NCBI GenBank assembly: GCA_947454255.1
Contig: CANGIU010000007.1
Coordinates: forward strand, 1 to 61,565
From: Micrococcales bacterium
Lineage (GTDB): Bacteria; Actinomycetota; Actinomycetes; Actinomycetales; Microbacteriaceae
Length of the DNA: 61,565 nucleotides
Direction of reading: 5' to 3'
The notes below the pieces were generated by a model. The model saw only the letters and a program-made list of their open reading frames with translations, was not told where the DNA came from and did not search any database. Shown piece after piece: positions 5,007 through 44,318 of this stretch. The translations under genes were made by a program, and so were the position numbers. Each line of letters opens with the position of its first letter. Within the stretch, counting starts at the first letter, position 1.

Positions 5007-5507
5007 TTGGATCACATCAATAACCCCACTGAAGCCCTGAAAGCAGCCTTTAGAAGGCACGCATCTGGAGTCTGCGTCATTACCCTAAATGACGTCGACG
5101 GTAAGCCTGTCGGCTTCACAGCGACCTCAGTGACATCGCTGGGTTCAGAGCCCGCACTAGCTACGTTCAACGTTGCTAGGGGCGCAAGTAGTTGGCCAGC
5201 ACTTGCTGATGCTGAGTATGTTTCTATTCAAATGTTGAATGAAGCAAGTCTCCCCCTAGCCATTCGGATGTCTCAAGATCACACCCAACGCTTTGTTCCA
5301 AATGACTGGTTTAGAGAATCAAAAACAGATCTACCAATTTTTGAGAAGGTTAACGCTGCTTTGATTTGCAGAATCAGGGAACGCTACGAAGTTGAAAAAA
5401 ATGCAGTGGTTGTTGTGGAGATCATCGAAGGGTTATTCCCCGAAGAGCTCTCCAGTCTTCTCTACCACCAGCGCGGGTACGTCATCCCCGGTGATCGGAT
5501 CAGCTAG
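5007..5507 (+). CDS. Flavin reductase-like (FMN-binding) family protein
   Basis: A 166-residue protein of the flavin reductase-like split-barrel family, whose members reduce or bind FMN/FAD, often supplying a monooxygenase; the substrate here is unknown. Seen: the N-terminal pattern FRRHASGVCVITL, then GFTATSVTSLGSEPALATF with the family's FTxTSxxS(L) motif, and the usual end LLYHQRGY near 151-158. The start is TTG at 5007 with AGAAGGA six bases upstream. It is the only plus-strand gene between hisD and dnaE. Its last 75 bases overlap the 3' end of dnaE on the other strand, including its own conserved C-terminal motif. Confidence 0.85.
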   Translation: MDHINNPTEALKAAFRRHASGVCVITLNDVDGKPVGFTATSVTSLGSEPALATFNVARGASSWPALADAEYVSIQMLNEASLPLAIRMSQDHTQRFVPNDWFRESKTDLPIFEKVNAALICRIRERYEVEKNAVVVVEIIEGLFPEELSSLLYHQRGYVIPGDRIS

Positions 5508-28372: not shown

Positions 28373-28395
28373 AGCCCCGGCAAACTGCCGAGGCT
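28373..28395 (-). terminator. Rho-independent terminator after the DUF3040 gene
   Basis: On the minus strand a ten-base stem AGCCTCGGCA / TGCCGGGGCT (one mismatch) with a GTT loop is followed by TTTTTTCTGTC. It lies 35 bases beyond the stop of the DUF3040 gene and upstream of the mraZ promoter, so it separates that gene from the dcw cluster. Confidence 0.85.
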
Positions 28396-28429
28396 AAGAA
28401 ATCAGCTGTTTAGTGGTTGGAAATGGTGT

Positions 28430-28801
28430 TTATTTGCCCTCGTTGCGCTGATCCCAACGATTCTGGAAGAAGCTTCCAGATGACTTATTCGCTCGTTTTG
28501 ACTCGTCAGAAGCAGCTTTGGCTCCCCTAATTGCTCGAGAAGACCAGTTCTGGCTTACCAAATAGAGCCCGAAAAGCATGGTCATGAAAGCAATTACTCC
28601 AAACCAGACCAAATGCACACTGGTGGCAAAGATCATGAGCCCGAGGCCAATAATCACAAGGGTTGAGCCTAGAACCAGAAGTCTGGCGTACTTGGTTGGA
28701 TTCTCGCTAATGGGTGCAACCTTAGCTTTTGGTTCTTTTGAACCGGTTAGCTGACGCTCAAGCTCTGCTAGAACTTTTTGCTCTTGCTCTGATAAACCCA
28801 C
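28430..28801 (-). CDS. DUF3040 family membrane protein
   Basis: A 123-residue actinobacterial protein with the DUF3040 start LSEQEQKVLAELERQL and two adjacent membrane spans (about 44-62 and 66-85), ending in a basic Ser/Lys/Arg tail. The family has no established function, but commonly sits just upstream of mraZ. GTG at 28801 has GGAGGA five bases upstream. It has its own terminator and faces away from the polyprenyl synthase gene, with 58 bases between the two starts. Confidence 0.85.
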   Translation of the reverse strand: MGLSEQEQKVLAELERQLTGSKEPKAKVAPISENPTKYARLLVLGSTLVIIGLGLMIFATSVHLVWFGVIAFMTMLFGLYLVSQNWSSRAIRGAKAASDESKRANKSSGSFFQNRWDQRNEGK

Positions 28802-28847
28802 GGAATCCTCCAGACCTAGGCTTTAATGCTAAACGCTTTTGCCAAGT

Positions 28848-28853
28848 TAGGCT
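28848..28853 (+). promoter_or_regulatory. -10 element for a leaderless polyprenyl synthase transcript
   Basis: TAGGCT fits the TAnnnT pattern of actinobacterial -10 elements. Exactly six bases separate it from the GTG start codon at 28860, so transcription would begin at or next to the start codon. No Shine-Dalgarno sequence is present. The same geometry (TAGCCT, six bases, GTG) is seen at 42559-42573. Confidence 0.5.
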
Positions 28854-28859
28854 ATTCCA

Positions 28860-29984
28860 GTGAAATCCTCAGAATTACTCCTAGGTCAGGTTCAAGAGAA
28901 TCTTGATTCTTTCTGCCACAAGCAGCGCTCGGACTTTGAAGCCATCTCTGCTGATTTGGTGCCAGTAGTGGATTACACCCAGAGTCTTTTGCAGGGAGGT
29001 AAGCGATTTAGAGCCCTCTTCTGTTACTGGGCCTGGCGTAGTGCGCTTAGTCAATCTCTTCACCAGCAAAGCCAGGCTGAGGTAGCAGAATCTGAAGCCG
29101 CTATTGCAGGGATCGCAGCATCTCTTGAGATGTTTCATGCCGCCGCTCTAGTTCATGATGATCTTCTTGATCAATCAGATACTCGTAGAGGCGCTCCAAG
29201 TATTCACAAACGTTTCGAAACCTTGCATGCTGAGAAACAGTGGGCCGGCAGTCCTGAACGATTTGGTGTTGCTGGGTCTGTCTTGGTTGGCGATCTAATG
29301 CTTGGTTGGTCAAGCGAAATCTTTGGTAACGCTCTTCTTCACTCCCCTACACGTGAAATCGAAAGCGCTTGTCGTGACGAGTTCAGCCTGATGCGTGTTG
29401 AAGTGATGGCTGGACAGTATTTAGATGTTCTTGAAGAAAATGCTGCAGCTACTAGATCTCTCTCAGAAGCAGTTGGTAGGGCTGAGAAAGTAATTCTCTA
29501 TAAGACAGCTAAATACTCAATTGAAGCTCCACTTAGAATTGGTGCGGCTTTTGCGGGCGCAGATCAGGCAACTCTTAACTCTTTTACTTCTTTTGGAATT
29601 CCCTTGGGAATCGCATTCCAACTAAGAGATGACATCCTTGGTGTTTTCGGTGATCCAAGTGTGACCGGAAAACCGGCTGGAGATGACCTGCGTGAAGGTA
29701 AAAGAACAGTTTTAGTTGCTCTTACCAAACAATCGCTAGCGGCAAGGTCGACCTCTATGAGCGACGCATTTGAAGAACTACTAACCAGCAGAGAACTTGA
29801 AGCTCAGCAAATTGAATTTATGCAGCAACTCATTAAAGAATCTGGCGCTCTTGATAAGACCGAGAGAATGATTAATGAACTTGCCGACAGGTCACTAGAG
29901 GCTTTGGATGAGGCGAGCCTTGATCCAGAGGCCAAAGAAGTTTTGCGTTCACTAGCTTTGAAAGTAATTAACCGAGACAGCTAG
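28860..29984 (+). CDS. Polyprenyl diphosphate synthase (IdsA/GGPP synthase-like)
   Basis: Condenses isopentenyl diphosphate with allylic diphosphates to make longer prenyl chains. The 374 residues include both Asp-rich motifs of the trans-prenyltransferase family: DDLLDQSDTRRG near 99-110 and DDILGVFGD near 257-265, and the substrate-binding GGKRFRA near 41. Product length (GGPP, or a longer quinone or carotenoid precursor) cannot be fixed here. The start is GTG at 28860 with a -10-like TAGGCT six bases upstream and no ribosome-binding site, suggesting a leaderless mRNA. Its stop interlocks with that of the next, opposite gene. Confidence 0.9.
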   Translation: MKSSELLLGQVQENLDSFCHKQRSDFEAISADLVPVVDYTQSLLQGGKRFRALFCYWAWRSALSQSLHQQSQAEVAESEAAIAGIAASLEMFHAAALVHDDLLDQSDTRRGAPSIHKRFETLHAEKQWAGSPERFGVAGSVLVGDLMLGWSSEIFGNALLHSPTREIESACRDEFSLMRVEVMAGQYLDVLEENAAATRSLSEAVGRAEKVILYKTAKYSIEAPLRIGAAFAGADQATLNSFTSFGIPLGIAFQLRDDILGVFGDPSVTGKPAGDDLREGKRTVLVALTKQSLAARSTSMSDAFEELLTSRELEAQQIEFMQQLIKESGALDKTERMINELADRSLEALDEASLDPEAKEVLRSLALKVINRDS

Positions 29985-30328
29985 AGCGCTAGTGACTGAG
30001 CGATGCGTCTAACTTCAGTCTTCCTACCAGAAACAAGTGCCGACATTGGAGTACCACGAAGAATGTCGTTTTCTGTATAGAGCCAGTTGATGGCACTCAT
30101 GAGAGTAAATCCCGAATCTAAAAGAACCAAAATGGTTCCCCTTAATGAAGGTAAAGCTTCGCCATTGGCAATGAGCTCTGCAGGAATCATAAAGACTCCA
30201 TCTCGCTTTACAGCAATCAGATTGTGCTCTTCGATTAGTCGGCGGACTTTGCCAGGGACAATGCCAAGGCGTTCACCTGCCTCAGGAATTGAAATCCAAT
30301 CGGTTACGTTATCTATAGGTTGACTCAC
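29981..30328 (-). CDS. Rv2175c-like winged-helix DNA-binding protein
   Basis: A 115-residue protein resembling mycobacterial Rv2175c, a DNA-binding substrate of kinase PknL. An N-terminal helix-turn-helix (WISIPEAGERLGIVPGKVRRLIEE, about residues 11-34) is followed by a short wing (LIAVKRDGVFMIPAE) and the C-terminal part ending in the LSxxRKTEVRRIAQ segment. The start is GTG at 30328. It is divergent from the PASTA kinase and ends tail-to-tail with the prenyl synthase gene. The one Thr ahead of the DNA-binding domain is T9; whether it is phosphorylated is unknown. Confidence 0.82.
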   Translation of the reverse strand: MSQPIDNVTDWISIPEAGERLGIVPGKVRRLIEEHNLIAVKRDGVFMIPAELIANGEALPSLRGTILVLLDSGFTLMSAINWLYTENDILRGTPMSALVSGRKTEVRRIAQSLAL

Positions 30329-30478
30329 ATCTCAAGATTGCCACACCTGAAGGCTTCCCGCTATCTACAATTAGGTCGTGGCACGATATTTATGCCCTAC
30401 TAGTTACGGAACAATGACCTCTCTACTTAATCCCAACCCTGTCCTTGGCGTCCTTTGCGCCCAGAGAAGGGTCGGCGC

Positions 30479-32311
30479 ATGAGTGACCTGCTGGGAAGAA
30501 CCCTTTCATCTAGGTACTTAGTTCAAGAGATAATCGCTCGCGGCGGTATGTCAACGGTTTATAAAGCCAAAGACCAGAGGCTAGACCGTCAAGTGGCAGT
30601 AAAGGTCATCCATCCGCATCTTGCAGCTGATCCGCTCTTTAGAGACAAGTTCTTCAGAGAAGCAAGAATGTTGGCCAAGGTAAATCATGCAAACCTTGTA
30701 AATATTTATGATCAGGGCGATGATTCCGGAAATGCATATATTGTTCTCGAGTTTGTAGAAGGAATTACGTTACGAGATGCTCTTCGAGACAATGGAGCAC
30801 TCACCACCGGACAAATCTTGCAGGTGAGTAAAGCAATACTGTCTGCGTTGACTCAAGCCCATGCCAATGGAATTGTTCATCGTGATCTAAAACCAGAAAA
30901 TGTTTTGTTGTCTGATGACGGGCGAATAAAAGTTACAGATTTCGGGCTTGCTAGAGAACTTAGCGCAGATACTGATACTGGATCTTTGGTTGGCACTGTT
31001 GCCTATTTAGCTCCAGAGGTTATCAAGCGCGGTAAAACTCAAACTCAGAGTGATATCTATTCCTATGGCATCATGCTTTACGAAATGCTGACTGGTAAAC
31101 AGCCATATTTAGGAACTGATGCAATTCAGATAGCTATGCTTCACACAACATCAAGGGTCAGTTCAGCACTTGATAAAAACCCGAGTGCATCAATTGAACT
31201 CAATGAACTGATGCTCTATTGCACAGAACCAAACCCTGATAACAGACCTCAGAATGCAATTGATGCCCTAACCGCACTAGAGAACATCACAAAAAACTCT
31301 GTTAGTTATCCAGAGCAGAACTTAGATGAAACGCTAATTCTTAATGACTCTTTCGAGGACATAAGCTTTACCGAAGTTATTGCTGATATTGGAAAACCTG
31401 AAGACAACCCGTTTGAGCCTTATTCAAAGCGAAACGTTTTCAGCAAATGGCTTATTGCAAGCCTGCTTGTATTTTTACTAGGGTCTTTGGGTGGCTGGTG
31501 GTTTGGTTCTGGACCAGGAGCTTTGGTAGCTATTCCAAATGTCAGCGATAAGACAACTAGCGAAGCAACTAATCTGTTGCAGCCAGTCACCACACAAATC
31601 TCAATTCGTAAAGTCTTTAGTTCAACATTTGCTCAAGGACAAGTTGTTGGCACTGAACCACCGGCTGGTCTTCCTGTTTCAAAAGGTTCTGGGATAACCT
31701 TGTTGGTTTCAAAAGGTAAAGAGATGATATCTGTCCCATCTCTTTTTGGCTTAGATCTAGTTACCGCAACGGCAAAGTTGGTCGGCGCTCATCTCACCGT
31801 TGGTTCAGTAAGCGAGTGGTTTAACTCGGACTACTCACTAGGTTCTGTTTATGGGTACTCAGGCGATGACAAGACCAAGCTTGCAGTTGGATCAAGCGTT
31901 GATCTAAAGGTTTCTTTGGGTGCTATCCCAGTAGTTACTGGCCTTCGAGAAGGAGTCGCTAGAGCAGCACTTGAAGTTGCCGGCCTTACTGTTCGAAAGA
32001 GTGTCTATCATTTCTCAAATACTGTCTCAAAGGGTGAAGTAATCGAAGTTGTCCCAGATGAAGCGCAGGTTGGCAAGGGCTCAACAATAAAGCTTGTGGT
32101 GAGTCGAGGACCAAATACTGTGGTGATGCCAAAGGTTAAAGGTGAAACGATTTTGGCAGCACAAGCGTTACTTGAGTCGCTTGGATTGAAAGTCGTAATA
32201 GATACCAAGTGGCTATCTAAAGATTATGGAATTAAGAAAGTAACTGGAGTTAGCGAAAACGTTGGAGCCACCCTAAAGGTTGGTTCAAGCGTAACTATTC
32301 GATCTCGCTAG
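30479..32311 (+). CDS. PknL-type Ser/Thr protein kinase with four PASTA domains
   Basis: Membrane-bound sensor kinase. The 610 residues start at ATG 30479, seven bases after GAAGGG; the longer frame from 30455 lacks support. Domains in order: kinase (about 6-270) with GGMSTVYKAKD, the ATP-binding Lys in VAVKVIHP, HRDLKPEN, DFGLARE and LAPE; acidic linker; one membrane span (about 325-345); four extracellular PASTA repeats (from about 352, 420, 485 and 548 to the end). PASTA repeats bind peptidoglycan fragments. The neighbourhood (prenyl synthase, Rv2175c-like gene, DAHP synthase) matches mycobacterial pknL. Its likely targets in the window are the Rv2175c-like protein and GarA, by analogy. 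Confidence 0.92.
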   Translation: MSDLLGRTLSSRYLVQEIIARGGMSTVYKAKDQRLDRQVAVKVIHPHLAADPLFRDKFFREARMLAKVNHANLVNIYDQGDDSGNAYIVLEFVEGITLRDALRDNGALTTGQILQVSKAILSALTQAHANGIVHRDLKPENVLLSDDGRIKVTDFGLARELSADTDTGSLVGTVAYLAPEVIKRGKTQTQSDIYSYGIMLYEMLTGKQPYLGTDAIQIAMLHTTSRVSSALDKNPSASIELNELMLYCTEPNPDNRPQNAIDALTALENITKNSVSYPEQNLDETLILNDSFEDISFTEVIADIGKPEDNPFEPYSKRNVFSKWLIASLLVFLLGSLGGWWFGSGPGALVAIPNVSDKTTSEATNLLQPVTTQISIRKVFSSTFAQGQVVGTEPPAGLPVSKGSGITLLVSKGKEMISVPSLFGLDLVTATAKLVGAHLTVGSVSEWFNSDYSLGSVYGYSGDDKTKLAVGSSVDLKVSLGAIPVVTGLREGVARAALEVAGLTVRKSVYHFSNTVSKGEVIEVVPDEAQVGKGSTIKLVVSRGPNTVVMPKVKGETILAAQALLESLGLKVVIDTKWLSKDYGIKKVTGVSENVGATLKVGSSVTIRSR

Positions 32312-33675
32312 CGAGCTGCTAGTTCTTCAGCAACTAGGAATGCTAGCTCTAGCGACTGTGAGTGATTGAGTCTAGGGTCACAAAGTGATTCGTATCTTGA
32401 TTCCAAAGTAATCTCATCGATGTGCTCACTTCCGCCTAGACACTCAGCAACATCATCACCGGTAAGTTCAACGTGAACTCCGCCAGGGAAGGTTCCTAGA
32501 TCACGGTGGACCTCAAAGAACCCGCGGACTTCATTCATGACATCATCGAAGCGGCGAGACTTGTATCCGTTCGCTGTGGTAATGCCATTACCGTGCATTG
32601 GATCTGTGATCCAAAGCGGTTGGAATCCAGCATCTCTAACTGCAGTTACCAACTTAGGAAGTGCTTCGCGAATCTTTTCTGCACCCATTCTGGTGATAAA
32701 AGTTAGTCGCCCAGGTTCGTGATTAGGGTCAAGCTTTTCAATTAGCGCCATAACATCATCAACTGAGGTATTTGGGCCAAGCTTCACACCAAGCGGATTG
32801 CGAACCCTCGAGAGGAAGTCAACGTGTGCCCCATCAAGTTGGCGAGTTCTCTCACCAATCCAAATGAAGTGTGCGCTGGTGTCGTAGGGAGTTCCAGTTC
32901 TCGAATCGATTCGAGTCATTGGACGCTCGTAATCAAAGAGCAACCCCTCATGACTTGTGTAGAACTCAGTCGTTCTTAGCTCATTAAAGTTTGCACCACA
33001 GGCTGCCATAAATTTGATCGCTCGATCAATATCTTTTGCCATAGTTTCGTATCTTGAGTTTGCTGGGTTGTCAATAAACCCTTTGTTCCACTCATGCACT
33101 GAACGTAAATCTGCAAAGCCACCCATGGTGAATGCCCTAATCAAATTCAGAGTTGAAGCTGAGGTGTTATATGCCTGAAGCAATCTCGTTGGATCAGGAG
33201 TTCTAGAAGCTAATGTGAAATCATAGCCATTGACTGCATCACCTCGGTAGGCAGGTAGCGTGAGTTCTTCTCGAGTCTCAGTGTCTGAAGATCTAGGCTT
33301 GGCAAACTGGCCAGCCATTCTGCCCATCTTTACCACAGGCATCGAAGCACCGTAGGTCAATACAACTGCCATCTGCAGCAATGTCTTCACTCGGTTACGA
33401 ATTCGGTCTGCGGTCGCATCCACAAAGGTTTCAGCACAGTCACCACCTTGCAATAGGAATGCTTTACCTTGAGCAGCTTGAGCAAGTCGGTCTTTAAGGA
33501 TGTCCACTTCACCTGCAAAAACAAGTGGTGGGTATTTTGAAAGGATTGCACGAACTTCAGCAACCGCAGCCGCATCAGGCCAAGTCGGCTGTTGAGCCGC
33601 AACGAGGTTGCGGTAGTTATCCAGGCCCACGATGACTCCTGGGTCTGCCGCTACTACTGGTTCAAATGAAGCCAA
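32308..33675 (-). CDS. aroG: Class II 3-deoxy-D-arabino-heptulosonate 7-phosphate synthase
   Basis: First step of the shikimate pathway: phosphoenolpyruvate plus erythrose 4-phosphate to DAHP. The 455 residues are of the type II (plant/mycobacterial) family: GGDCAETF near 78, RMAGQFAKPRS near 119, ANSRYETMAKD near 204 and WITDPMHGNGI near 360. TTG at 33675 has AGGA eight or nine bases upstream. Its stop interlocks with that of the kinase gene. In mycobacteria this enzyme binds an AroQ-type chorismate mutase; the mutase in this window (aroH) is of a different fold. Confidence 0.96.
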   Translation of the reverse strand: MASFEPVVAADPGVIVGLDNYRNLVAAQQPTWPDAAAVAEVRAILSKYPPLVFAGEVDILKDRLAQAAQGKAFLLQGGDCAETFVDATADRIRNRVKTLLQMAVVLTYGASMPVVKMGRMAGQFAKPRSSDTETREELTLPAYRGDAVNGYDFTLASRTPDPTRLLQAYNTSASTLNLIRAFTMGGFADLRSVHEWNKGFIDNPANSRYETMAKDIDRAIKFMAACGANFNELRTTEFYTSHEGLLFDYERPMTRIDSRTGTPYDTSAHFIWIGERTRQLDGAHVDFLSRVRNPLGVKLGPNTSVDDVMALIEKLDPNHEPGRLTFITRMGAEKIREALPKLVTAVRDAGFQPLWITDPMHGNGITTANGYKSRRFDDVMNEVRGFFEVHRDLGTFPGGVHVELTGDDVAECLGGSEHIDEITLESRYESLCDPRLNHSQSLELAFLVAEELAAR

Positions 33676-33702
33676 TTTATGGTTCCTGTCTAGGTTGGAT
33701 AC

Positions 33703-34377
33703 TTAACGACGATCTTTTAATGTTGAGGCATATACGTCGATGTATTCCTGCCCGCTGAGCTTCATCAGCTCATAAATTATCTCATCAGTGACAGCCCTTA
33801 GCACTAGTCGATCGCCCTCCATGCCAGCAAAGCGAGAGAAATCAAGGGGCTCTCCAACCACGACACCAATGCGACGAATTCGTGGCAACCTTCTGCCAAT
33901 AGGTTGGACTTTCTCCGTATCAATCATTGCAACTGGAAAAACTGGGACTTTAGCTTCAAGCACCATACGAGCAATACCAGTTCTACCTCTAAATAATCTG
34001 CCATCCGGAGATCTGGTTCCTTCGGGATAAATACCGAGTAATTGGCTTTGCGCCAAAACGCCGAGACCAGTGTTAAGCGCTGCTTCAGATGCCTTGCCGC
34101 CACTTCTATCAATCGGTAGTTGACCGGTTCCTTTGAAGAACCAACGTGAAAGAGTGCCTTTGATTCCCTTGCCGGTAAAGTATTCGCTTTTTGCGAGAAA
34201 GACTACCGGGCGACGAAGCATCAGAGGTAAGAAGATTGAGTCTGAGAATGAAAGGTGATTAGACGCCAAAATTGCAGCACCATCGGTTGGAATTTTGTCC
34301 GCGCCTTTGACCCAGGGTCTAAATAGCACCTTGAGAATTGGTCCAAGGATGATGTTTTTCAGCAAGAAATACCACAT
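33703..34377 (-). CDS. 1-acyl-sn-glycerol-3-phosphate acyltransferase (PlsC family)
   Basis: Membrane-associated acyltransferase making phosphatidic acid, or a related lipid acylation. The 224 residues show the catalytic H-x4-D motif as NHLSFSD near 40-46, FFKGTGQLPIDR near 80 and the acceptor-binding YPEGTRSPDG near 116-125. ATG at 34377 has GGAGG six bases upstream. It sits upstream of aroG on the same strand, as in mycobacteria; exact acceptor not determinable. Confidence 0.9.
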   Translation of the reverse strand: MWYFLLKNIILGPILKVLFRPWVKGADKIPTDGAAILASNHLSFSDSIFLPLMLRRPVVFLAKSEYFTGKGIKGTLSRWFFKGTGQLPIDRSGGKASEAALNTGLGVLAQSQLLGIYPEGTRSPDGRLFRGRTGIARMVLEAKVPVFPVAMIDTEKVQPIGRRLPRIRRIGVVVGEPLDFSRFAGMEGDRLVLRAVTDEIIYELMKLSGQEYIDVYASTLKDRR

Positions 34378-34419
34378 GCTGAACCTCCATCTCTTCCCGA
34401 ACTTGCTCGAAAGATAAGT

Positions 34420-35370
34420 TTATCGCGGCAGTGAATGTAATCTAGCCAGATCTGCTACGCCTACGACCCCTGCATCATTGATAAGTTCAGCTGTGACGAG
34501 CTTCAGTTCTGGCCTGAAACCTCGGGCTGGAAGGTGCTCTAGGAAAGCCTTACGGATTGGATCAAGCAGCAACTCCCCTGCTGCGCTAACTCCTCCACCG
34601 ATAACTACAAGCTCTGGATCTAGAACTGCCGCTAGTGACGCCACTGCAAGCCCAAGGTTCTGACCCAATTCAGTCAAAAGTCTGAGCGCACCAACATCCC
34701 CTTCTTGGATTGCTTGATACACCTCTACCCCGGTCAATTCACCCTTTTGGCTAGCTAGTTCTCTTAGCCGAGCTCCCTCTTGGGTGTTTTGAGCAATAAG
34801 TTCTTTGGCCGAATTCAACAGCGCTGTTCCAGAACCATACTGTTCCAAGCAACCATGTTGCCCACAACCACAAGCTTTGCCATTCGGGACAAAATTGCTG
34901 TGACCTAGCTCAGCCCCAATACCAAAGCCACCTCGGAAAAGTTCACCATTGGCAACGATTGCCCCGCCAACTCCGGTTCCGATGGTTAGCATCACCACGT
35001 GAGCGCTTCCTCGCCCAGCACCAAAACGATACTCAGCCCAACCAGCAGCATTGGCATCATTCTCTATAAATACCGGAATTTTAAGTTCTGCTTCTAAATT
35101 TGCCTTCAAAGGCTCATTTCTCCAGCTCAGGTTTGGTGAATAAACCACAACAGCCTGATTTGCATCGATAAATCCTGCAGCGGCAACGCCAACAGCGGCT
35201 ATTTGCTCACCTGCTCTAAGTTCATTTACCATCGCCACTACGGCTGCCTGAAGAGCCTTAGGGTCAGTCGCAGGGGTTGGAACCTTGAGTTCACGAAGGA
35301 TTACGCCAGTGTCAGATACCAGAGCACCAGCAATCTTGGTTCCCCCGATGTCAATTCCAACGGTATTCAT
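34420..35370 (-). CDS. ROK-family glucokinase
   Basis: Phosphorylates glucose to glucose 6-phosphate. The 316 residues include the phosphate-binding GIDIGGTKIAGAL (4-16), the sugar-binding stretch IENDANAAGWAE near 100, GTGVGGAIV near 129 and the ROK zinc motif CGCGQHGCLE near 165-174. The absence of an N-terminal helix-turn-helix excludes a ROK repressor. ATG at 35370 follows GAAGGA. Divergent from the acyl-CoA ligase gene. Confidence 0.9.
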   Translation of the reverse strand: MNTVGIDIGGTKIAGALVSDTGVILRELKVPTPATDPKALQAAVVAMVNELRAGEQIAAVGVAAAGFIDANQAVVVYSPNLSWRNEPLKANLEAELKIPVFIENDANAAGWAEYRFGAGRGSAHVVMLTIGTGVGGAIVANGELFRGGFGIGAELGHSNFVPNGKACGCGQHGCLEQYGSGTALLNSAKELIAQNTQEGARLRELASQKGELTGVEVYQAIQEGDVGALRLLTELGQNLGLAVASLAAVLDPELVVIGGGVSAAGELLLDPIRKAFLEHLPARGFRPELKLVTAELINDAGVVGVADLARLHSLPR

Positions 35371-35423
35371 CGATTTCCTTCACTTTTTAACAACTTCGGT
35401 CAGTATATCGGCAAGGGGCGCAA

Positions 35424-35449
35424 TAGCCTAGCGGGCTAAGAATTAGCCC
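35424..35449. promoter_or_regulatory. Overlapping palindromes between glucokinase and acyl-CoA ligase genes
   Basis: TAGCC, GGCTA and TAGCC alternate in 26 bases. TAGCC-TAGCG-GGCTA (35424-35438) and GGGCTAA-GAA-TTAGCCC (35433-35449) are both perfect inverted repeats sharing the middle arm. They lie just upstream of a TAGAGT -10-like hexamer (35459-35464) for the ligase gene, covering its -35 region, so a repressor site or mutually exclusive hairpins are both possible. The regulator is unknown. Confidence 0.45.
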
Positions 35450-35498
35450 TGCCACGGGTAGAGTAGTGAAAAGTTTCATTTACAGTCCGGAGTTAGAG

Positions 35499-37337
35499 AT
35501 GAAGACCAACGAAGTTCCACTGCTTGTTACCTCCCAACCAGGGGCAAACATCACTGATCTCCTAATCGAGCGGGTCAAGCAAGATCCAAAACTGCCTTTG
35601 ATGTCTAAACAAACTCAACCTGGAGTTTGGGCAGATGTGTTAGCGGGTGACTACCTCAAAGAGGTAACCGACCTTGCTAAAGGTTTCATAGCTGCTGGCA
35701 TCGAAGTTGGTCAACGCGTAGGGATCATGAGTCACACCCGATACGAGTGGGCTCTATGCGATTTCGCTCTTTGGTTTGCCGGAGCTGTATCAGTGCCCAT
35801 TTACGAATCTTCCGCCCCGAGCCAAATTGAATGGATTCTCTCTGACTCTGGTGCAACCGCAGCATTATTCGAAGATGCTACTTTGCTTGAACTTTTCAAG
35901 AGTGTAAAGAGCAATCTTCCAAAAGTTACCAAGCAGTGGATTTTTGAAGGTAATGATCTTCAAGAGCTAGTTAAGTTGGGTTCTAAAATCACCGATGCAG
36001 AACTAGAAGCAAGAAGAACTGCGAACGGACTTCAAGATTTAGCCACAATCATCTATACCTCTGGTACTACAGGTCGGCCTAAAGGTTGTGAACTTGTGCA
36101 CCAGGGATTCGTAGATTTATCTCGTAACGCCCAGGCAGTCCTCCCTCAGGTTGTATGCCCAGGTGGATCAACAGTTTTGTTCTTACCAATGGCGCACGTC
36201 TTCGCTCGATTTGTTTCAGTCTTGTGTGCTTCAAGTGGGGTCCAAGTTGGACACCAACCTGATGCAAAGAATGTTGCCCCAGCTATGCAAAGCTTCCACC
36301 CAACTTTCTTGTTGGCAGTGCCAAGAGTCTTTGAAAAGGTTTATAACTCTGCAGAGCAACGTGCAGAAGGAGCTGGTAAAGGAAAGATTTTCCACGCAGC
36401 AGCAGAAACCGCTATTGCATGGTCGATGGCCCTTGACACTAAGAAAGGCCCGAGCCTTTCTCTAAATATCAAGCACAAGCTCTTTGATGCACTTGTCTAC
36501 AAAAAGCTCAGAGCCGCTATGGGTGGCCGAGTGAAGTATGCCATCAGCGGTGGTGGACCACTTGGGGCTCGCCTCGGTCACTTCTACAGAGCTATTGGTT
36601 TGATTGTTTTGGAGGGCTATGGACTTACCGAAACAACTGCACCAGTGACTATTGGAAGGCCAGATAACCTCAAAATTGGCAAGGTTGGTTTCCCGCTGCC
36701 TGGTTGCGGCGTTCATATTGCTGACGACGGCGAAATCTGGCTACGTGGAACAAACGTGCTCAAGGGTTATTGGAATAACAAAGATGCCACCAAGTCGACC
36801 TTTGAAGGTGACTGGTTCAAGACCGGTGACATCGGTGTTCTAGATGAAGATGGTTTCCTCGCAATCACCGGACGTAAAAAAGAACTGATCATCACTGCGG
36901 GTGGAAAAAACGTAGCACCAGCATTACTTGAAGACCCGCTTCGTGCCAATCCATTGGTCAGCCAAGCGGTCGTAATCGGCGATGCGAAACCTTTCGTGTC
37001 TGTATTGGTTTCTATCGATGAAGAGATGCTTCCAATCTGGCTTGAAAATAACGGCATCAAAGAGAAGCTCACTCTGGATGAAGCTCGCTCAAACACCGCA
37101 GTTCTTGCTGAGGTTTCTAAAGCGATTGAGGCAGTAAATTCCCATTTCTCGACAGCTGAATCAATCAGAAAATTTGCACTACTCCCATACGATCTAACAG
37201 AGAAAAGTGGACACCTAACACCTTCGCTAAAGATTAAGCGGTCGACAGTTGTTGAAGACTTTGGAAACCTGATTGATGACATTTATGCCGATAGCGCTAA
37301 GTCAACCTGTCACAACATCGGTGATTACAAGATCTAA
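35499..37337 (+). CDS. Long-chain acyl-CoA synthetase (FadD15-like AMP-dependent ligase)
   Basis: Activates fatty acids to acyl-CoA through an acyl-adenylate. Motifs: YTSGTTGRPKGCEL near 187-200, the YGLTETTAPVT substrate block near 380, TGDIGVLDEDGFLAITGRKKE near 445 (including the adenylate-binding Asp and the hinge), and an IKRST-type end near 587. I prefer ATG at 35499 (612 residues), with GGAG six bases upstream. The GTG at 35466 lies too close to the -10-like TAGAGT to be the start of a transcript from it. Its stop interlocks with def. Confidence 0.92.
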   Translation: MKTNEVPLLVTSQPGANITDLLIERVKQDPKLPLMSKQTQPGVWADVLAGDYLKEVTDLAKGFIAAGIEVGQRVGIMSHTRYEWALCDFALWFAGAVSVPIYESSAPSQIEWILSDSGATAALFEDATLLELFKSVKSNLPKVTKQWIFEGNDLQELVKLGSKITDAELEARRTANGLQDLATIIYTSGTTGRPKGCELVHQGFVDLSRNAQAVLPQVVCPGGSTVLFLPMAHVFARFVSVLCASSGVQVGHQPDAKNVAPAMQSFHPTFLLAVPRVFEKVYNSAEQRAEGAGKGKIFHAAAETAIAWSMALDTKKGPSLSLNIKHKLFDALVYKKLRAAMGGRVKYAISGGGPLGARLGHFYRAIGLIVLEGYGLTETTAPVTIGRPDNLKIGKVGFPLPGCGVHIADDGEIWLRGTNVLKGYWNNKDATKSTFEGDWFKTGDIGVLDEDGFLAITGRKKELIITAGGKNVAPALLEDPLRANPLVSQAVVIGDAKPFVSVLVSIDEEMLPIWLENNGIKEKLTLDEARSNTAVLAEVSKAIEAVNSHFSTAESIRKFALLPYDLTEKSGHLTPSLKIKRSTVVEDFGNLIDDIYADSAKSTCHNIGDYKI

Positions 37338-37831
37338 CGCATAAACCAATCAGATTGGCGTAAGAGCTTCATAGCTTCTTTTCGCTCTTCTGCTGTGAGC
37401 CTGTCTAGATATAACAAACCATCTAAATGGTCATACTCGTGCTGAATGGCCTGGGCCATCAGCCCAGTTCCAGAAATAGTTGTTTCACTTTGATCGAGCA
37501 ATTGCCCAGTCAAAGAGGCTTCAGGATATCTTGTCGTTAGATGCCAGTGACCTGGTACAGACAGACATCCCTCTTCAGTTAGAAATGGTTCCCCGGAAAG
37601 CACGAGGTTCTTTGGGTTGATTAGGTAACCAACTTTGCCTCCGACGTTATAACTGAATGCTCTAAGTGAAACGCCTATTTGTGGAGCTGCAACACCTGCT
37701 CGGCCCGGAATTTTAGTGGTGTCAACGAGATCGGCAATCAATGCTTCTGTTTTGGCGCTGAAATCAGTTATCACATCGCAAGAAGACTTTAGAACTGGGT
37801 CGCCATAGAGACGTATTTCTCGAACTGTCAT
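37334..37831 (-). CDS. def: Peptide deformylase
   Basis: Removes the formyl group from the N-terminal Met of new proteins; a metalloenzyme. The 165 residues carry all three motifs: GVAAPQIGVS near 45-54, EGCLSVPG near 90-97 (metal-binding Cys) and QHEYDHLDG near 131-139 (metal-binding His residues and catalytic Glu). It is downstream of the MinD-like gene with three bases between them. Confidence 0.96.
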   Translation of the reverse strand: MTVREIRLYGDPVLKSSCDVITDFSAKTEALIADLVDTTKIPGRAGVAAPQIGVSLRAFSYNVGGKVGYLINPKNLVLSGEPFLTEEGCLSVPGHWHLTTRYPEASLTGQLLDQSETTISGTGLMAQAIQHEYDHLDGLLYLDRLTAEERKEAMKLLRQSDWFMR

Positions 37832-37834
37832 GAA

Positions 37835-39019
37835 TTAGTTGGACTTGGCCAAACCCTCAACGACCAATGCTGCAAGTTCACGCGCAGCTTCACGAGTATT
37901 GCGATTCAGTTGATCAAACTTAATAACTGATCCAGCTGCCAAAGCTGGGTCATATGGAATCTTGACAACGGCACGAACACGAGATTTGAAGTGCGCTTCA
38001 ATCTCATCCAACTTCACAAGGTTAGTTCCCTGCGTTGCTGTGTTAAGTGCTACTACCGAGCCACGAACTAGATCTCCATAACCGTTGGCCTCAAGCCAGG
38101 TTAGAGTCTCTGAAGCCAATCTAGCTTCGTCAACTGAACCACCAGAAACAATTACTAAACCGTTGGCTCTCTGCAGGGTTGGTCGCATAACTGAGTGGAC
38201 AATACCTGTACCACAGTCAGTAAGGATGATTGTGTAATAACGAGCCGCCATGTCAGCAACGACGTTGTAATCTCCCTCATCGAATGCTTCCGAAAGCATT
38301 GGGTCGCTGTCAGATGCTAGAACGTGAAGTCTAGTTACGTCTCTAGAGACCATGGTTGAGAAATCAGTAAATCCATCAATAGCTGCTGCCCTATTTACAA
38401 CGTCTCTAACTGTGAACCTAGTTGACTTGCTGACACGTTCTGCCAGTGTGCCACGGTCAGGGTTGGCATCAATAGCGATAACTCGATCTTCTCTGGCCAG
38501 CGCCATAGCCATTCCCAGAAGTGTTGTAACGGTAGTTTTGCCAACGCCACCCTTGCGGGTAAGCACTGGCACAAATCTTGCGCCTCCACCTAGGTTGGCA
38601 GCGATTCGAGCATCGATTGCTTTGCGTTCGCGAACGCGTAGGTTATCGCCCAGGTTAATAGATTTTAGAGATAAGAAATAAATGAACCTGCGGAAACCTG
38701 ATTCTGGAGCTGGTCTGGTCTTAGCGTTCACTTCAATAAGACGATCGGCTGTGAGCATAGCGGCGGGCTCTGGCTGATCAAAAGTATCGCCCCGGAGGCT
38801 GTCACGTCTGGAGTAGCCAGTTTGGGAAGCGGCGAGACTTGCAGTTTCAGATGCTCCGCCTGTTGGAACAATCGCTGTGGCTTCAGTAACAACCTTGATT
38901 GATGAAGTGGTTGGAGTTAGATCAACCGTGCTGGCTTCAATACCAATTGCACCTAGGTCCGCATTAGATTCAGATGAATCTTTCGAACGAGAGTTCTTGC
39001 CTTCAAATTTTTCAGCCAA
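37835..39019 (-). CDS. MinD/ParA-like P-loop ATPase with disordered N-terminus
   Basis: A 394-residue protein whose C-terminal 270 residues form a deviant Walker-A ATPase: RKGGVGKTTVTTLLG near 159, AIDANPDRGTL near 188 and LTDCGTG near 267. The first 120 residues are Ser/Thr/Ala/Glu-rich and probably disordered. Such MinD-like proteins occur in Actinobacteria near secretion, pilus or polar systems; no such system is here, so function is unknown. The start is uncertain. TTG at 39019 has AAGGA seven bases upstream; the ATG at 39037 gives six more residues but has no usable site. It lies between def and pyruvate carboxylase, and no ParB-like partner is present. Confidence 0.8.
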   Translation of the reverse strand: MAEKFEGKNSRSKDSSESNADLGAIGIEASTVDLTPTTSSIKVVTEATAIVPTGGASETASLAASQTGYSRRDSLRGDTFDQPEPAAMLTADRLIEVNAKTRPAPESGFRRFIYFLSLKSINLGDNLRVRERKAIDARIAANLGGGARFVPVLTRKGGVGKTTVTTLLGMAMALAREDRVIAIDANPDRGTLAERVSKSTRFTVRDVVNRAAAIDGFTDFSTMVSRDVTRLHVLASDSDPMLSEAFDEGDYNVVADMAARYYTIILTDCGTGIVHSVMRPTLQRANGLVIVSGGSVDEARLASETLTWLEANGYGDLVRGSVVALNTATQGTNLVKLDEIEAHFKSRVRAVVKIPYDPALAAGSVIKFDQLNRNTREAARELAALVVEGLAKSN

Positions 39020-39086
39020 AGCTAATTCCTTATGCATTCCAATTCAAGGCAAATTCAGCCCTGAAACAATAACTTATTGGGTAAGT

Positions 39087-42000
39087 CTATTCGCTAACTT
39101 TAGGTTCAACCACGAGGATGAGATCCCCCGACTCAACCGCTTGAGTCTTGGCAATGGCTAGACGCCTGATAACACCTGAGATATTGGCTGTGATGGTTGC
39201 CTCCATCTTCATAGCCTCAATGGTGGCGACAGGCTGGCCGAGCTCTACCTGAGTGCCTTCAACCACCTGCAAGGTGACAACCCCTGCAAAAGGAGCCGCA
39301 ACCTCTGCTGGGTTAGCCAAATTAGCCTTTTCAGCAGAGACAACAGTTGTTGCTATCTTTCGATCTCTAATGTTGATTGGACGCAATTGGCCGTTGAAAG
39401 TAGCCATAACCGTTCTAAAGCCCTTGGTGTCAGGTGAGCCAATTGCCTCAAGACCAACAAAGATACGAACTCCCTTGGCAATCTCAACAACATGCTCATG
39501 ACCTTGCTCTAAGCCGTATAGGTAATCCAAAGTGTCTACTGGGTCAAGGTTGCCAAATGTTGATCGAGCCTTTTCGAATTCGGCTGTCGGACCTGGGAAA
39601 AGCAATCTGTTGAGAGTACTTCTTCTCACCTTTGCATCACCCGATACTAGATTTTCCAAATCAGCAGGCGATACAGCGACTAGACCAAACTTCGGGCTCT
39701 TGCCTTGCAAAACTTTGGTTCTAAATGGTTCTGGCCATCCACCAGGCAGGTCTCCTAGTTCGCCTGCCATAAAACCAACTACTGAATCTGGAATGTCATA
39801 GTTCTGGGGGTTAGCTGCGAAATCGGCTGGATCAGCATTTACTGCAACTAAGTGCAACGCTAGATCACCGACAACTTTTGAAGATGGAGTTACTTTTGGT
39901 GGTCTTCCTAGAATTTCATTAGCTGCTGCATACATATCTTCAACGCGCTCGAACTGATTACCTAAACCGAGAGCGATGGCCTGCTGGCGAAGGTTGCTCA
40001 GTTGGCCACCGGGGATTTCATGCTTGTATACACGACCTGTTGGTCCTCGAAGACCTGATTCAAATGGTGCGTATACATTTCTAACAGCTTCCCAATATGG
40101 TTCAAGAGCTGTGATCTCATCAAGTGTGATTCCAGCATCTCTATCTGTATTTTCAAGGGCTGCAATCAATGCAGAGGCGGACGGTTGGCTAGTTGTTCCG
40201 GCCATTGGCGCAGAAGCAACATCCACAGCATCGACACCAGCATCTATGGCTGCAATCAAAGTTGCTAACTGACCACCTGCAGTGTCGTGGGTGTGCAGAT
40301 GAACTGGGACATCAAACTCAGCGCGGAGTGCTTTAACTAACTTTGCTGCTGCCTGAGGGCGAAGTAGTCCTGCCATGTCTTTGATAGCAAGAATATGTGC
40401 GCCAGCGTTAACAACCTGTCTAGCTAAAGCTAGGTAGTACTCAAGGGTATATAACTTCTCGTTTGGATGGAGTAGATCACCGGTGTAACAGATGGCTACT
40501 TCAGCAACAGCAGTTTTAGTCTTTAACACAGCGCTAATCGCTGGAAGCATTTGATCAACATCGTTTAGTGCATCGAAGATTCTAAAGATATCAACACCAG
40601 AAAGTGCTGCTTCTGAAACGAAAGCTTCAGTTACCTCAACTGGGTAAGGTGTGTATCCAACAGTGTTCTGACCGCGAAGCAGCATTTGAATACAAATGTT
40701 CGGCATCGCCTCTCTTAGCGCGGTAAGTCTGGCCCAAGGATCTTCACCTAGGAAACGAAGTGCAACATCATATGTTGCCCCTCCCCAGGCTTCTACTGAG
40801 AATAACTTGTGCAGCACTCTTGCCTCGTATGGGGCCACCTGAACCAGATCGCGAGATCTAACTCTTGTTGCTAGCAACGACTGGTGTGCGTCTCTGAAGG
40901 TGGTGTCAGTAATCGCAACTGCTGACTGTTCTCTCAAGGCTTTTGCAAATGCTGTTGGGCCTAGCTCAATCAACTGTTGACGAGAACCATTTGGGGCAGG
41001 TTTAGTCAAGTCAAGCTTCGGCAACTTTGAAGCGGGTGAGATTAGGTCTCCCCTTGCTCCGTAGGGCTGGTTGACTGTGACATCGGCCAACCAGTTCAGA
41101 ATCTTGGTCCCTCTATCGAGTGAAGCATGTGCCGTAAGCAGTTCAGGTCTCTCATCAATGAAAGCTGTGCTTAGCTCACCAGCTGCAAAGCTAGGGTCGG
41201 CAAGAACTCCTTGCAGGAAGGCAATGTTGGTGGAAACTCCACGGATCCTAAATTCAGCCAGCGCACGCTCTGCTCTGTTTACAGCAGTCTTAAGATCCCT
41301 GCCTCTAGTTATTAGTTTCACAAGCAATGAGTCAAAGTGCGGACTAATCTCACTTCCGGTCGAAACCGTTCCACCATCAAGACGAATGCCAGCGCCGCCT
41401 GGTGAACGATAGGTGCTTATCTTTCCAGTGTCCGGTCTAAAGCCTGCAGTTGGATCTTCGGTTGTGATCCTGCACTGAATTGCAAAACCATGCATTTCAA
41501 TCTTGTCTTGGGTCAGTTCCAATTCTGAAAGCGTCTTACCTGCTGCAATCAGCATCTGTGACTGCACTAAATCGATACCAGTAATTTCTTCAGTGACAGT
41601 GTGCTCAACCTGAATTCTTGGGTTCATTTCAATGAAGACGTGCTTGCCTGCATTTGGGCCAACGGTATCGATTAGGAACTCAACAGTTCCAGCATTGACG
41701 TAGCCAACCTGCTTAGCGAATGCAACCGCATCTCGGTAAAGTTCTTCTCTAAGTTCTTGAGAGATATTCGGTGCTGGTGCGATCTCGACAACTTTTTGGT
41801 TTCTTCGCTGAACGGAACAATCACGCTCGAATAAGTGAACTACGTTTCCCTGTCCATCTGCCAAGATTTGAACTTCAATGTGACGAGGTCGAAGCACAGC
41901 TTGTTCGAGAAAAACTCTCGCGTCACCAAATGCACTCTCTGCTTCACGCATAGCCTCACCAAGTGCAGCCGGAAGAGACTGAGCATCTGCAACTCTACGC

Positions 42001-42503
42001 ATTCCTCTTCCGCCACCACCAGCAACAGCCTTTACAAAAAGTGGAAAACCGATTTCTTTAGAATCTTCAATCAGGATTGAAGTGTCTTCTGATTGTCTTG
42101 AAGATTTTAGAACTGGAACTTTGGCGGCGATAGCGGCTTCTTTAGCGTTGACCTTGTTTCCAGCAAGTTCCAAAACCGCCGAGGTCGGACCAATAAAAGT
42201 AATTCCATTGGCTTTTGCGGCCTCTGCAAGTTCTGGGTTTTCAGAGAGGAATCCATAACCTGGATAGATGGCGTCAGCGCCACACTCCAAAGCAACACGA
42301 ATGATTTCAGAAACATCTAGGTAGGCACGAACTGGGTGGCCAATCTCACCGATCTGGTAAGCCTCGTCTGCCTTTAGCCTGTGTGATGAGTTTCTGTCCT
42401 CATAAGCAAAGACAGCAACAGTCTTAGCGCCTAGCTCATAGGCTGCCCTGAAGGCGCGAATGGCTATTTCACCTCGGTTGGCAACCAAAATCTTGCTGAA
42501 CAT
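39087..42503 (-). CDS. pyc: Pyruvate carboxylase
   Basis: Biotin enzyme that replenishes oxaloacetate from pyruvate and bicarbonate. The 1138 residues are full length. Domains in order: biotin carboxylase (MFSKILVANRGEIAIR, ATP-grasp loop AGGGGRGMRR near 161, EMNPRIQVEHTVTE near 293), carboxyltransferase (DTTFRDAHQSLLATRVR near 538, AWGGATYD near 573, metal-binding HLHTHDTAGG near 740) and biotin carrier with the biotinylated Lys in EAMKMEA near 1100. It is flanked by two P-loop ATPase genes of the ParA/MinD family, one on each side. Confidence 0.97.
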   Translation of the reverse strand: MFSKILVANRGEIAIRAFRAAYELGAKTVAVFAYEDRNSSHRLKADEAYQIGEIGHPVRAYLDVSEIIRVALECGADAIYPGYGFLSENPELAEAAKANGITFIGPTSAVLELAGNKVNAKEAAIAAKVPVLKSSRQSEDTSILIEDSKEIGFPLFVKAVAGGGGRGMRRVADAQSLPAALGEAMREAESAFGDARVFLEQAVLRPRHIEVQILADGQGNVVHLFERDCSVQRRNQKVVEIAPAPNISQELREELYRDAVAFAKQVGYVNAGTVEFLIDTVGPNAGKHVFIEMNPRIQVEHTVTEEITGIDLVQSQMLIAAGKTLSELELTQDKIEMHGFAIQCRITTEDPTAGFRPDTGKISTYRSPGGAGIRLDGGTVSTGSEISPHFDSLLVKLITRGRDLKTAVNRAERALAEFRIRGVSTNIAFLQGVLADPSFAAGELSTAFIDERPELLTAHASLDRGTKILNWLADVTVNQPYGARGDLISPASKLPKLDLTKPAPNGSRQQLIELGPTAFAKALREQSAVAITDTTFRDAHQSLLATRVRSRDLVQVAPYEARVLHKLFSVEAWGGATYDVALRFLGEDPWARLTALREAMPNICIQMLLRGQNTVGYTPYPVEVTEAFVSEAALSGVDIFRIFDALNDVDQMLPAISAVLKTKTAVAEVAICYTGDLLHPNEKLYTLEYYLALARQVVNAGAHILAIKDMAGLLRPQAAAKLVKALRAEFDVPVHLHTHDTAGGQLATLIAAIDAGVDAVDVASAPMAGTTSQPSASALIAALENTDRDAGITLDEITALEPYWEAVRNVYAPFESGLRGPTGRVYKHEIPGGQLSNLRQQAIALGLGNQFERVEDMYAAANEILGRPPKVTPSSKVVGDLALHLVAVNADPADFAANPQNYDIPDSVVGFMAGELGDLPGGWPEPFRTKVLQGKSPKFGLVAVSPADLENLVSGDAKVRRSTLNRLLFPGPTAEFEKARSTFGNLDPVDTLDYLYGLEQGHEHVVEIAKGVRIFVGLEAIGSPDTKGFRTVMATFNGQLRPINIRDRKIATTVVSAEKANLANPAEVAAPFAGVVTLQVVEGTQVELGQPVATIEAMKMEATITANISGVIRRLAIAKTQAVESGDLILVVEPKVSE

Positions 42504-42558
42504 GCGTTCCTAACTGCAGTCAGGCGAACAAATAACGGGTTGCGCCTAAATCAAAAGG

Positions 42559-42564
42559 TAGCCT
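42559..42564 (+). promoter_or_regulatory. -10 element for a leaderless parA-like transcript
   Basis: TAGCCT (TAnnnT pattern) ends six bases before the GTG start at 42571, with no Shine-Dalgarno sequence between. The spacing is identical to that at the polyprenyl synthase gene (28848-28860). A leaderless transcript starting on the GTG is the simplest reading. A convincing -35 was not found. Confidence 0.5.
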
Positions 42565-42570
42565 AGACAG

Positions 42571-43602
42571 GTGCAGGTATTAAGCATTAGCGCCTTGAAG
42601 GGCGGAGTTGGTAAAACCACGGTTACCCTTGGTCTTGCCTCTGCTGCCATGTCTAGGAACTTACGCACACTGGTGATTGATTTAGACCCACAGTGCAACG
42701 CAAGCATTGGTTTAGGTGCGGTTGGGGAACATAACTCTTCAGCGGCCGAAGTAATCAAGAAGCCCCGGCACAACACTGTGCTACAGGCAATTGTAGTCTC
42801 ATCTTGGGCTAAGGGGCAGTCAGGGCGCTTAGATATCATGGTCGGCAACCCTAGATTGACCATAGCCAACAAGGGAAATCCCTCTTACCGATCGCTTTGG
42901 CAAATTGAGCGAGCTTTAGCCACTATCGAAGACAAGTATGACCTCGTTCTAATTGACACACCTCCTTCAATCGGAGCGCTGACAAGAATGGCTTGGGTGG
43001 CAAGTGATCGCGTCCTGCTAGTGGCTGAGCCAACCATCAACTCAGTAATTTCCATCGAGACTGCTGTGAAAGCTCTTGTTGAATTGAGGAACAAAGTCAA
43101 TCGTCGAGTTCACCTATTTGGAGTGTTAGTAAATAGACTCCGCGCCAGCGTTGCAGAGCACCAGTATCGAGTCAATGAACTCGAGGAGCTCTTTGGCGAT
43201 TTGATGCTTAATCCCCCGCTCGAGGAAAAGACCGCCCTTCAACAAGCTTCTGGTGCAGGCAAATCAATACATGCTTGGCCCGGCCAATCAGCAGCAAAAT
43301 TAGCCAACCGTTTTGATGTTTTACTAGAGCAGGCATTGAGCGCTTTTCAAGCCGAAGACCCTGGTAGCACCCTTCGCAAACGTAAAACAGACGGTAAGAG
43401 CCGATTCTCTAAACGCAGTCGAGACATTAAACCAAGTTTTCCGGCTAAGCCAGAAGTGATCAAGGAATTTGCTGCCACTGAGCCGGAAGAACCTGTCAGC
43501 GTTTCTCCAGAATATGAAGAGAAGTTCAACGAAGTAATTCGCCAGACACTAACTAAGAAGCAGATACAAGCTCTTACCCAACAATCTGAGGATGAGAATT
43601 AA
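42571..43602 (+). CDS. ParA-family ATPase, orphan, with charged C-terminal tail
   Basis: A 343-residue ParA-like protein: Walker A KGGVGKTTVTLGL at 10-22, Walker A' LVIDLDPQCNASIG near 34-47, and Walker B DLVLIDTPPSIG near 126. The ATPase part ends near 260. A tail of about 80 residues follows, first basic (LRKRKTDGKSRFSKRSRD) then acidic and Glu-rich; it is not recognised and may bind DNA or a partner. It starts at GTG 42571, probably leaderless. No parB or parS-like sequence is beside it. Its stop interlocks with the ResR-like gene. Confidence 0.85.
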   Translation: MQVLSISALKGGVGKTTVTLGLASAAMSRNLRTLVIDLDPQCNASIGLGAVGEHNSSAAEVIKKPRHNTVLQAIVVSSWAKGQSGRLDIMVGNPRLTIANKGNPSYRSLWQIERALATIEDKYDLVLIDTPPSIGALTRMAWVASDRVLLVAEPTINSVISIETAVKALVELRNKVNRRVHLFGVLVNRLRASVAEHQYRVNELEELFGDLMLNPPLEEKTALQQASGAGKSIHAWPGQSAAKLANRFDVLLEQALSAFQAEDPGSTLRKRKTDGKSRFSKRSRDIKPSFPAKPEVIKEFAATEPEEPVSVSPEYEEKFNEVIRQTLTKKQIQALTQQSEDEN

Positions 43603-44207
43603 ATAGCTTTTTTGCTAAGTCTCTTCAGTGTTAGTTCATCAAGATCTTCAATGTGGCTTGGGTTAATGGTGGTCAGAGTTGCCTCTACCTCGCCAAGAAC
43701 CTTGCCAACCGAAATACCGAATACACCCTGACCGCGATCCAGTAGGTCAATGACCTCATCGACTGACGTGCAAAGGTAAACCTTGGCTCCATCAGAGATC
43801 AGAGTGATTTTTGCCAGGTCACTAATCCCCGCTTCACGAAGCTGCTGAATAGCGATTCGAATTTGCTGCAGAGATACTCCAGCATCAATAAAACGCTTGA
43901 TAAGTTTTAGGACCAAGATATCGCGGAAGGAATATAGTCTTTGAGTTCCAGAACCTGATGCGCCTCTAACGCTAGGTTGAACGAGTCTTGTTCGATCCCA
44001 GTAATCAAGTTGGCGATAACTGATGCCAGCTGCACCAGCAGCAGATGTACCTCGGTAACCAACATTCGGGTCATGCCAAGGCTGAGAAACTGCAAACAGA
44101 TCATCCTGCAAGTATGCGAATTCACTGGCTTCGCTAAGAACGATTCGGCCAGTTTCAGTGGTTGGTTCCTTTATGACACCATCAACTTCGGGCTGATTTG
44201 AGTCCAT
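43599..44207 (-). CDS. MerR-family regulator, ResR/McdR (Rv1830)-like
   Basis: A 202-residue MerR-type transcription factor. The winged helix (GISYRQLDYWDRTRLVQPSV, near 62-81) is followed by TQRLYSFRDILVLKLIKRFIDAGVSLQQIRIAI (near 88-120) and a domain of unknown ligand. ATG at 44207 has GGAGG six bases upstream; an upstream frame to 44240 is unsupported. In mycobacteria the homologue Rv1830 controls growth and cell-size genes and is encoded with garA and Rv1828, as here, but the Rv1829-like nuclease gene that lies between the two MerR genes is missing. Confidence 0.85.
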   Translation of the reverse strand: MDSNQPEVDGVIKEPTTETGRIVLSEASEFAYLQDDLFAVSQPWHDPNVGYRGTSAAGAAGISYRQLDYWDRTRLVQPSVRGASGSGTQRLYSFRDILVLKLIKRFIDAGVSLQQIRIAIQQLREAGISDLAKITLISDGAKVYLCTSVDEVIDLLDRGQGVFGISVGKVLGEVEATLTTINPSHIEDLDELTLKRLSKKAI

Positions 44208-44318
44208 GCTGGCCTCCTCTCCTAGTACTCTAAAGCTCAACTTGTTATTGAACCTTTGTTTAATTGTTCCGCCTACCCCTGACCAAAGGGGGTTAATATT
44301 CTTTTTCGGCGTGTCGGA

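Follow-up and report, generated by a model that had tools for sequence, protein, structure and literature searches.

Four-base interlocks of convergent genes in a small actinobacterial genome: a probable end point of neutral packing set by stop-codon geometry

Convergent gene overlaps have been surveyed in 58 species, and the part of that survey used here counts 1890 of them, 1218 being at least 5 bases long (PMC2174442), which by subtraction leaves about 36% shorter than 5 bases. The same part of the source describes a jump at length 4, with the tetramers CTAA, TTAA, CTAG and TTAG, names stop-codon mutation as the commonest origin of convergent overlaps, and states that the exponential length distribution of a simple model was not observed. 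Going by this material, the 4-base convergent mode is already known. A neutral view of gene overlaps is favoured elsewhere (PMC4161906), and some real long overlaps are tolerated in the convergent orientation alone (PMC2478687). In E. coli K-12, identical 4-base geometry occurs at zapC/ycbX, yccX/tusE, flk/yfcJ, yicG/ligB and yqfG/yqfH.

Here we report four junctions of this kind in a window of 61,565 nucleotides (the whole stretch of DNA analysed), which is contig C7 of a MAG assembly of 1.24 Mb in 34 contigs (G000). The genome is probably that of a Rhodoluna-like freshwater actinobacterium. A 5S rRNA gene lies at the contig end (61447-61563), so that the contig break is probably located at a ribosomal RNA operon. 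A sequence-only reading had described four convergent pairs whose stop codons overlap by exactly 4 bases and a fifth pair that overlaps by 75, and all of these coordinates were right. The features are as follows.

Pair 1, left: 28860..29984, plus strand, polyprenyl (GGPP-type) synthase gene (Pfam PF00348, 162 bits)
Pair 1, right: 29981..30328, minus strand, gene of an Rv2175c-like DNA-binding protein, a regulator (PF18367 and PF21531)
Pair 1, junction: 29981..29984, CTAG, TAG stop on both strands, TA shared
Pair 2, left: 30455..32311, plus strand, gene of a Ser/Thr kinase with PASTA domains (PF00069, PF03793)
Pair 2, right: 32308..33675, minus strand, class II DAHP synthase gene (PF01474, 668 bits)
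Pair 2, junction: 32308..32311, CTAG, TAG stop on both strands
Pair 3, left: 35466..37337, plus strand, AMP-binding (acyl-CoA synthetase-like) gene (PF00501)
Pair 3, right: 37334..37831, minus strand, peptide deformylase gene (PF01327)
Pair 3, junction: 37334..37337, CTAA, TAA stop on the plus strand and TAG stop on the minus strand, TA shared
Pair 4, left: 42571..43602, plus strand, ParA/MinD-like ATPase gene (PF13614)
Pair 4, right: 43599..44240, minus strand, MerR-family regulator gene (PF13411)
Pair 4, junction: 43599..43602, TTAA, TAA stop on both strands, TA shared
Fifth pair: flavin reductase gene (5007-5507, plus strand) and dnaE (5433-9143, minus strand), 75-base convergent overlap at 5433..5507

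All ten proteins of the five convergent pairs matched at least one Pfam family above the curated cut-off, and the genes are therefore real. The four short junctions belong to the 4-base convergent kind: a YTAR tetramer is shared in each, and all eight partners are supported by Pfam. In tetramers, orientation and modal length they agree with the overlaps described in PMC2174442. Our own gene caller recovered four of the five plus-strand genes in the window and missed the flavin reductase gene; it also missed the genes of NrdR (2891-3361), signal peptidase II (10153-10656) and a DUF3040 protein (28430-28801), all of them Pfam-positive. The pair 2 junction is embedded in a perfect 12-base palindrome (32304-32315, CTCGCTAGCGAG), and the corresponding junction in a related species (L023, L053), CTCGTTAACGAG, is likewise a perfect palindrome.

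Enumeration of the stop codons on both strands showed that two convergent genes cannot overlap by 1, 2, 3 or 5 bases, that an overlap of 4 bases is possible solely as YTAR (CTAA, TTAA, CTAG or TTAG), and that the next possible length is 6. Whenever C or T stands before a TAA or TAG, a stop is also present on the opposite strand, and such an opposite-strand stop is already present at 133 of 264 non-convergent gene ends in the G000 stretches outside the window. In the 4-base form a single palindromic TA is common to both genes, and the outer C or T and A or G fall at the wobble position of each gene's last sense codon. Two bases lie outside sense codons and no sense codon overlaps another, which makes this the tightest packing that is free of sense overlap and double coding. 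That the overlap is exactly four bases follows from the genetic code. CTAG was considered as a special site and rejected, since it occurs 1860 times in G000 versus a Markov expectation of 1879 and the junction tetramers are mixed. TTAA is found at about half of its Markov expectation in the sampled stretches (743 vs 1517 in G000, 372 vs 791 in G016). TGA stops are present at 3 of 98 convergent ends versus 40 of 264 other ends in the sampled G000 stretches, partly because the 4-base junction excludes TGA.

Gene ends were called with our own script, based on a 3-periodic Markov model, on stretches of seven genomes; the G000 sample outside the window comprised 396,972 bases, about a third of the genome. 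Compared with the E. coli annotation, the caller found 43 versus 49 convergent pairs and four of the five pairs with a 4-base overlap (offset -4), with yqfG/yqfH missed and wrong partners assigned at a few sites where small genes had been overlooked. Outside the window, G000 contained 49 convergent pairs, of which 15 were at -4, 23 overlapped and 15 had spacers of at least 30 bases. Two genomes of the same genus had 8/51 (G016; 8/16 of close pairs) and 5/45 (G006; 5/12 of close pairs) of their convergent pairs at -4, and two small genomes of the same class 6/25 (G076; 6/15 of close pairs) and 4/24 (G113; 4/11 of close pairs). For E. coli K-12 the caller gave 4/43 (4/6 of close pairs) and a hand count of the annotation in the sampled stretches 5/49, so that these interlocks are rarer there than in G000. 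A relative with 74% GC and mostly TGA stops (G036) had -4 in 0/60 convergent pairs and 0/6 close pairs. The difference from the overlaps in the consulted part of PMC2174442 is one of degree alone: in G000, 15 of 23 overlaps are 4 bases long, which matches the use of TAA and TAG.

As a geometric null we took the frequency of opposite-strand stops at offsets -16 to +6 of gene ends outside convergent pairs. In G000, a share of 0.504 of the 264 ends had an opposite stop at -4, and the remaining possible offsets averaged 0.050. Among close pairs (-16 to +6) the expected share at -4 was 0.36, or 0.48 if weighted by stop usage, and 15/30 were observed (p = 0.08 and 0.47, respectively); no other sampled genome (G016, G006, G076, G113, E. 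coli, G036) departed from the null at p < 0.05. The sequence-only reading had proposed a genome-wide count of overlap lengths to separate the pattern from chance: an excess at four bases is indeed present in the sampled stretches, but its height is about that predicted by codon geometry. The window alone exceeds the null, with 4/4 close pairs at -4 (p = 0.004; weighted, 0.02), and we read this excess as selection of the window by its pattern. Given the rate of 15/49 outside the window, the probability of at least four of five pairs at -4 is 0.033 (uncorrected, for a pattern picked beforehand), and locally the pattern is weakly more than chance.

The random-extension model of Kingsford, Delcher and Salzberg from 2007 is reportedly the fullest account of such overlaps, with stop loss and capture of the next stop said to explain their uneven lengths. 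In our data, read-through to the first opposite-strand stop predicts that 18% (G000) and 22% (G016) of overlaps of up to 150 bases have 4 bases. The observed shares, 15/23 and 8/12, are higher, and plain read-through capture was rejected as the whole explanation; because it underpredicts four, the longer overlaps must disappear again, through selection or because a new stop arises later. Our version differs from the 2007 model by adding deletion pressure. Forward simulations used random letters and 250 junctions; changes were neutral up to a set number of extra codons, and TGA stops were disfavoured. With deletions and insertions at 2:1 and at most 3 extra codons, -4 accounted for 37% of the 250 junctions and for 0.51 of those that were close. 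Four settings with deletion bias yielded 14-42% of junctions at -4, and equal indel rates 2-5%. The setting that matched the -4 share had too many overlapping junctions, 165/250 versus 23/49 in the genome, and too few long spacers, 5% above 30 bases versus 15/49 of at least 30 in the genome. The simulation, which depends on its settings, suggests that neutral packing would be sufficient and demonstrates nothing more.

We consider it very probable that neutral packing of convergent genes, in a small genome whose genes stop mostly at TAA or TAG, has the 4-base interlocks as its geometric end point. A palindromic TA with C or T before it and A or G after it acts as a stop on both strands, allowing two genes to finish with two bases outside sense codons. 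Deletions and stop-codon mutations would shift the two gene ends relative to each other, under a presumed deletion pressure, and the -4 offset is available about ten times as often as other offsets because about half of gene ends carry the opposite-strand stop. Transcripts would then extend into the partner gene and be ended there by Rho or by a head-on collision of polymerases, or lack a sharp end. The junctions are ordinary members of an already described class, expected in compact genomes, and need no special mechanism. Of the two causes suggested earlier, a repeated mechanism of stop capture holds if it is taken as neutral, half of the other gene ends having the opposing stop ready-made; selection for compactness is not needed to account for the number four, as the geometric null fits and the simulation with a 2:1 deletion bias can give similar frequencies.

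The junctions were followed through the genus by a tally that includes the window's own genome and in which both genes were present on the fetched locus. The tally rests on the loci listed and covers loci with a genome handle, L052-L064 standing outside the counts. Among the loci listed, pairs 1 to 4 were at -4 in 9/23, 6/29, 10/22 and 10/20 genus genomes, respectively. Mapped on a tree of DnaE with seven genomes from other families as the root (a quick method, with five inner branches open), these states changed at least 4, 4, 5 and 6 times for pairs 1-4 (22, 19, 20 and 18 genomes), and tight and spaced forms of pair 2 were interchanged at least 6 times. At the nearest named loci (78-94% identity in the pair 3 enzyme), -4 was found in 10/10 cases for pair 1 and in 12/12 for pair 3, with the TA fixed and the outer letters changing, and pairs 2 (2/10) and 4 (5/8) varied. 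The reading of named loci left L002-L021 and L206-L225 aside and counted the loci that carry both genes of a pair; at L120 the genes lie on one strand. All four YTAR tetramers occur among the pair 3 orthologues. Read from these loci, the junction history is one of turnover with some persistence, and the -4 state would persist because losing the shared TA by mutation would cost both genes their stops.

The dnaE and flavin reductase genes overlap by 57-147 bases in 12/22 genus genomes (loci L156-L178; overlap ends traced by frame from tblastn matches), with a single recurring antisense phase, as each of the 12 lengths is divisible by three. DnaE of G000, G024 and G020 forms a very long branch relative to the rest of the genus (0.79 changes per column), although the DAHP synthases of the genus share about 80% identity. 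Loss of the DnaE PHP proofreading motif was considered as a cause of compaction in the lineage and dismissed: the motifs HxHxxYS and DHG look intact by eye in a check that excluded the partial DnaE of G004 and G012.

The excess at -4 might instead be driven by direct selection for the interlock, through maximal compactness or a benefit of the shared stop. Consistent with this, the -4 share of overlaps in G000 (15/23) exceeds the 18% predicted by read-through, the unweighted geometric test gives p = 0.08 for G000 and 0.004 for the window alone, and -4 is commoner in G000 outside the window (15/49) than in G016 and G006 (13/96; p = 0.025). Pairs 1 and 3 also keep -4 at every window-like named locus with both genes (10/10 and 12/12), but at the same loci pair 2 does so in 2/10 and pair 4 in 5/8. 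None of the seven samples taken outside the window rejected the null weighted by stop usage (p between 0.12 and 1), and E. coli, a genome without streamlining, has 5/49. Direct selection thus appears improbable.

Intrinsic terminators were sought with our own pattern for a G+C-rich hairpin followed by a T-run, scanned over 80 bases per stop (10 before, 70 after). Across six genomes the pattern matched 0/92 ends at -4 junctions (30 in G000 plus 8 in the window, 16 in G016, 10 in G006, 12 in G076, 8 in G113 and 8 in E. coli), including 0/8 in the window, and a hairpin inside the partner gene within 70 bases of the stop was likewise not matched. The remark of the sequence-only reading that the ends leave no room for a terminator, and that none can be seen, is borne out, yet it is true of all tight convergent ends: other ends with offsets below 20 gave 0/152 in the five small genomes and 0/54 in G036, and 1/12 in E. 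coli. Ends facing spacers of 20-150 bases matched in 37/108 cases in the five small genomes, 10/44 in E. coli and 0/32 in G036, and coding control windows in 9/1265, 6/272 and 0/326 cases, respectively, and in 1/46 in the window. Given 37/108 at spaced ends versus 0/92 and 0/152 at tight ones, hairpins are used where room exists and are absent at tight ends. A looser scan of 27000-46000 returned 20 terminator-like sites versus 19.7 in shuffles, so that none stands out; two could matter to pair 4.

43455-43439, minus strand, terminator-like site inside the ATPase gene, about 145 bases past the MerR stop
44275-44293, plus strand, terminator-like site just past the MerR gene, about 670 bases past the ATPase stop

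Among the loci listed, pair 2 has a spacer of 34-73 bases in 12/29 genus genomes; the minimum folding energies of these spacers range from -13.9 to -39.4 kcal/mol (values without a shuffle control). The G016 spacer, with a hairpin, an A-run before it and a T-run after it, is by its look a bidirectional terminator. In E. coli, head-on RNA polymerase collision is called a prevalent termination mechanism for convergent genes in a preprint (PMC13082048), and such collision would work without a hairpin at tightly packed ends. In Rickettsia prowazekii, site-specific termination was reported to be missing from most of the convergent transcripts examined (PMC3027695). Extensive antisense 3' untranslated regions at the junctions, as the sequence-only reading had proposed, are a reasonable inference.

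The junctions might instead be regulatory, with overlapping 3' ends giving antisense RNA by which the expression of each pair is coupled. The lack of terminator matches at -4 ends (0/92), the presence of both a rho gene and an RNase III gene in G000, and the antisense RNA from unterminated convergent transcripts described in the Rickettsia prowazekii study (PMC3027695) would fit this. On the other hand, the partner genes belong to unrelated families and the kind of junction changes repeatedly from species to species; moreover, Rho-site enrichment was not seen downstream of the -4 ends in G000, where C-over-G (1.135) was close to the value for antisense coding sequence overall (1.122). The authors of PMC2174442 interpret short overlaps, chiefly those on the same strand, as regulatory compression; we see no need for this here, and regard a regulatory role as highly improbable. 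An artefact of misassembly or wrong gene calls, which a MAG assembly in 34 contigs might invite, is already refuted by the orthologues, since other MAGs share the junctions of pairs 1 and 3 and some share those of pairs 2 and 4, and all eight proteins of the four pairs have Pfam matches.

The striking regularity in overlap length comes from the genetic code: four bases is the minimum for a convergent overlap, and about half of the gene ends in this genome offer it free. We further suggest, tentatively and as a rather unlikely extension, that shrinkage in the Rhodoluna lineage of the window removed intrinsic terminators from a large share of convergent ends, where collision, or Rho acting inside the partner gene, would end transcription. 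If this is true, the genus, in which one and the same gene pair has a hairpin in some species and a bare TA in others, would serve as a natural experiment in living without terminators. An orthologous pair that carries a stable hairpin in some genomes and a bare shared TA in others may offer a ready test case for how transcription stops in densely packed genomes.
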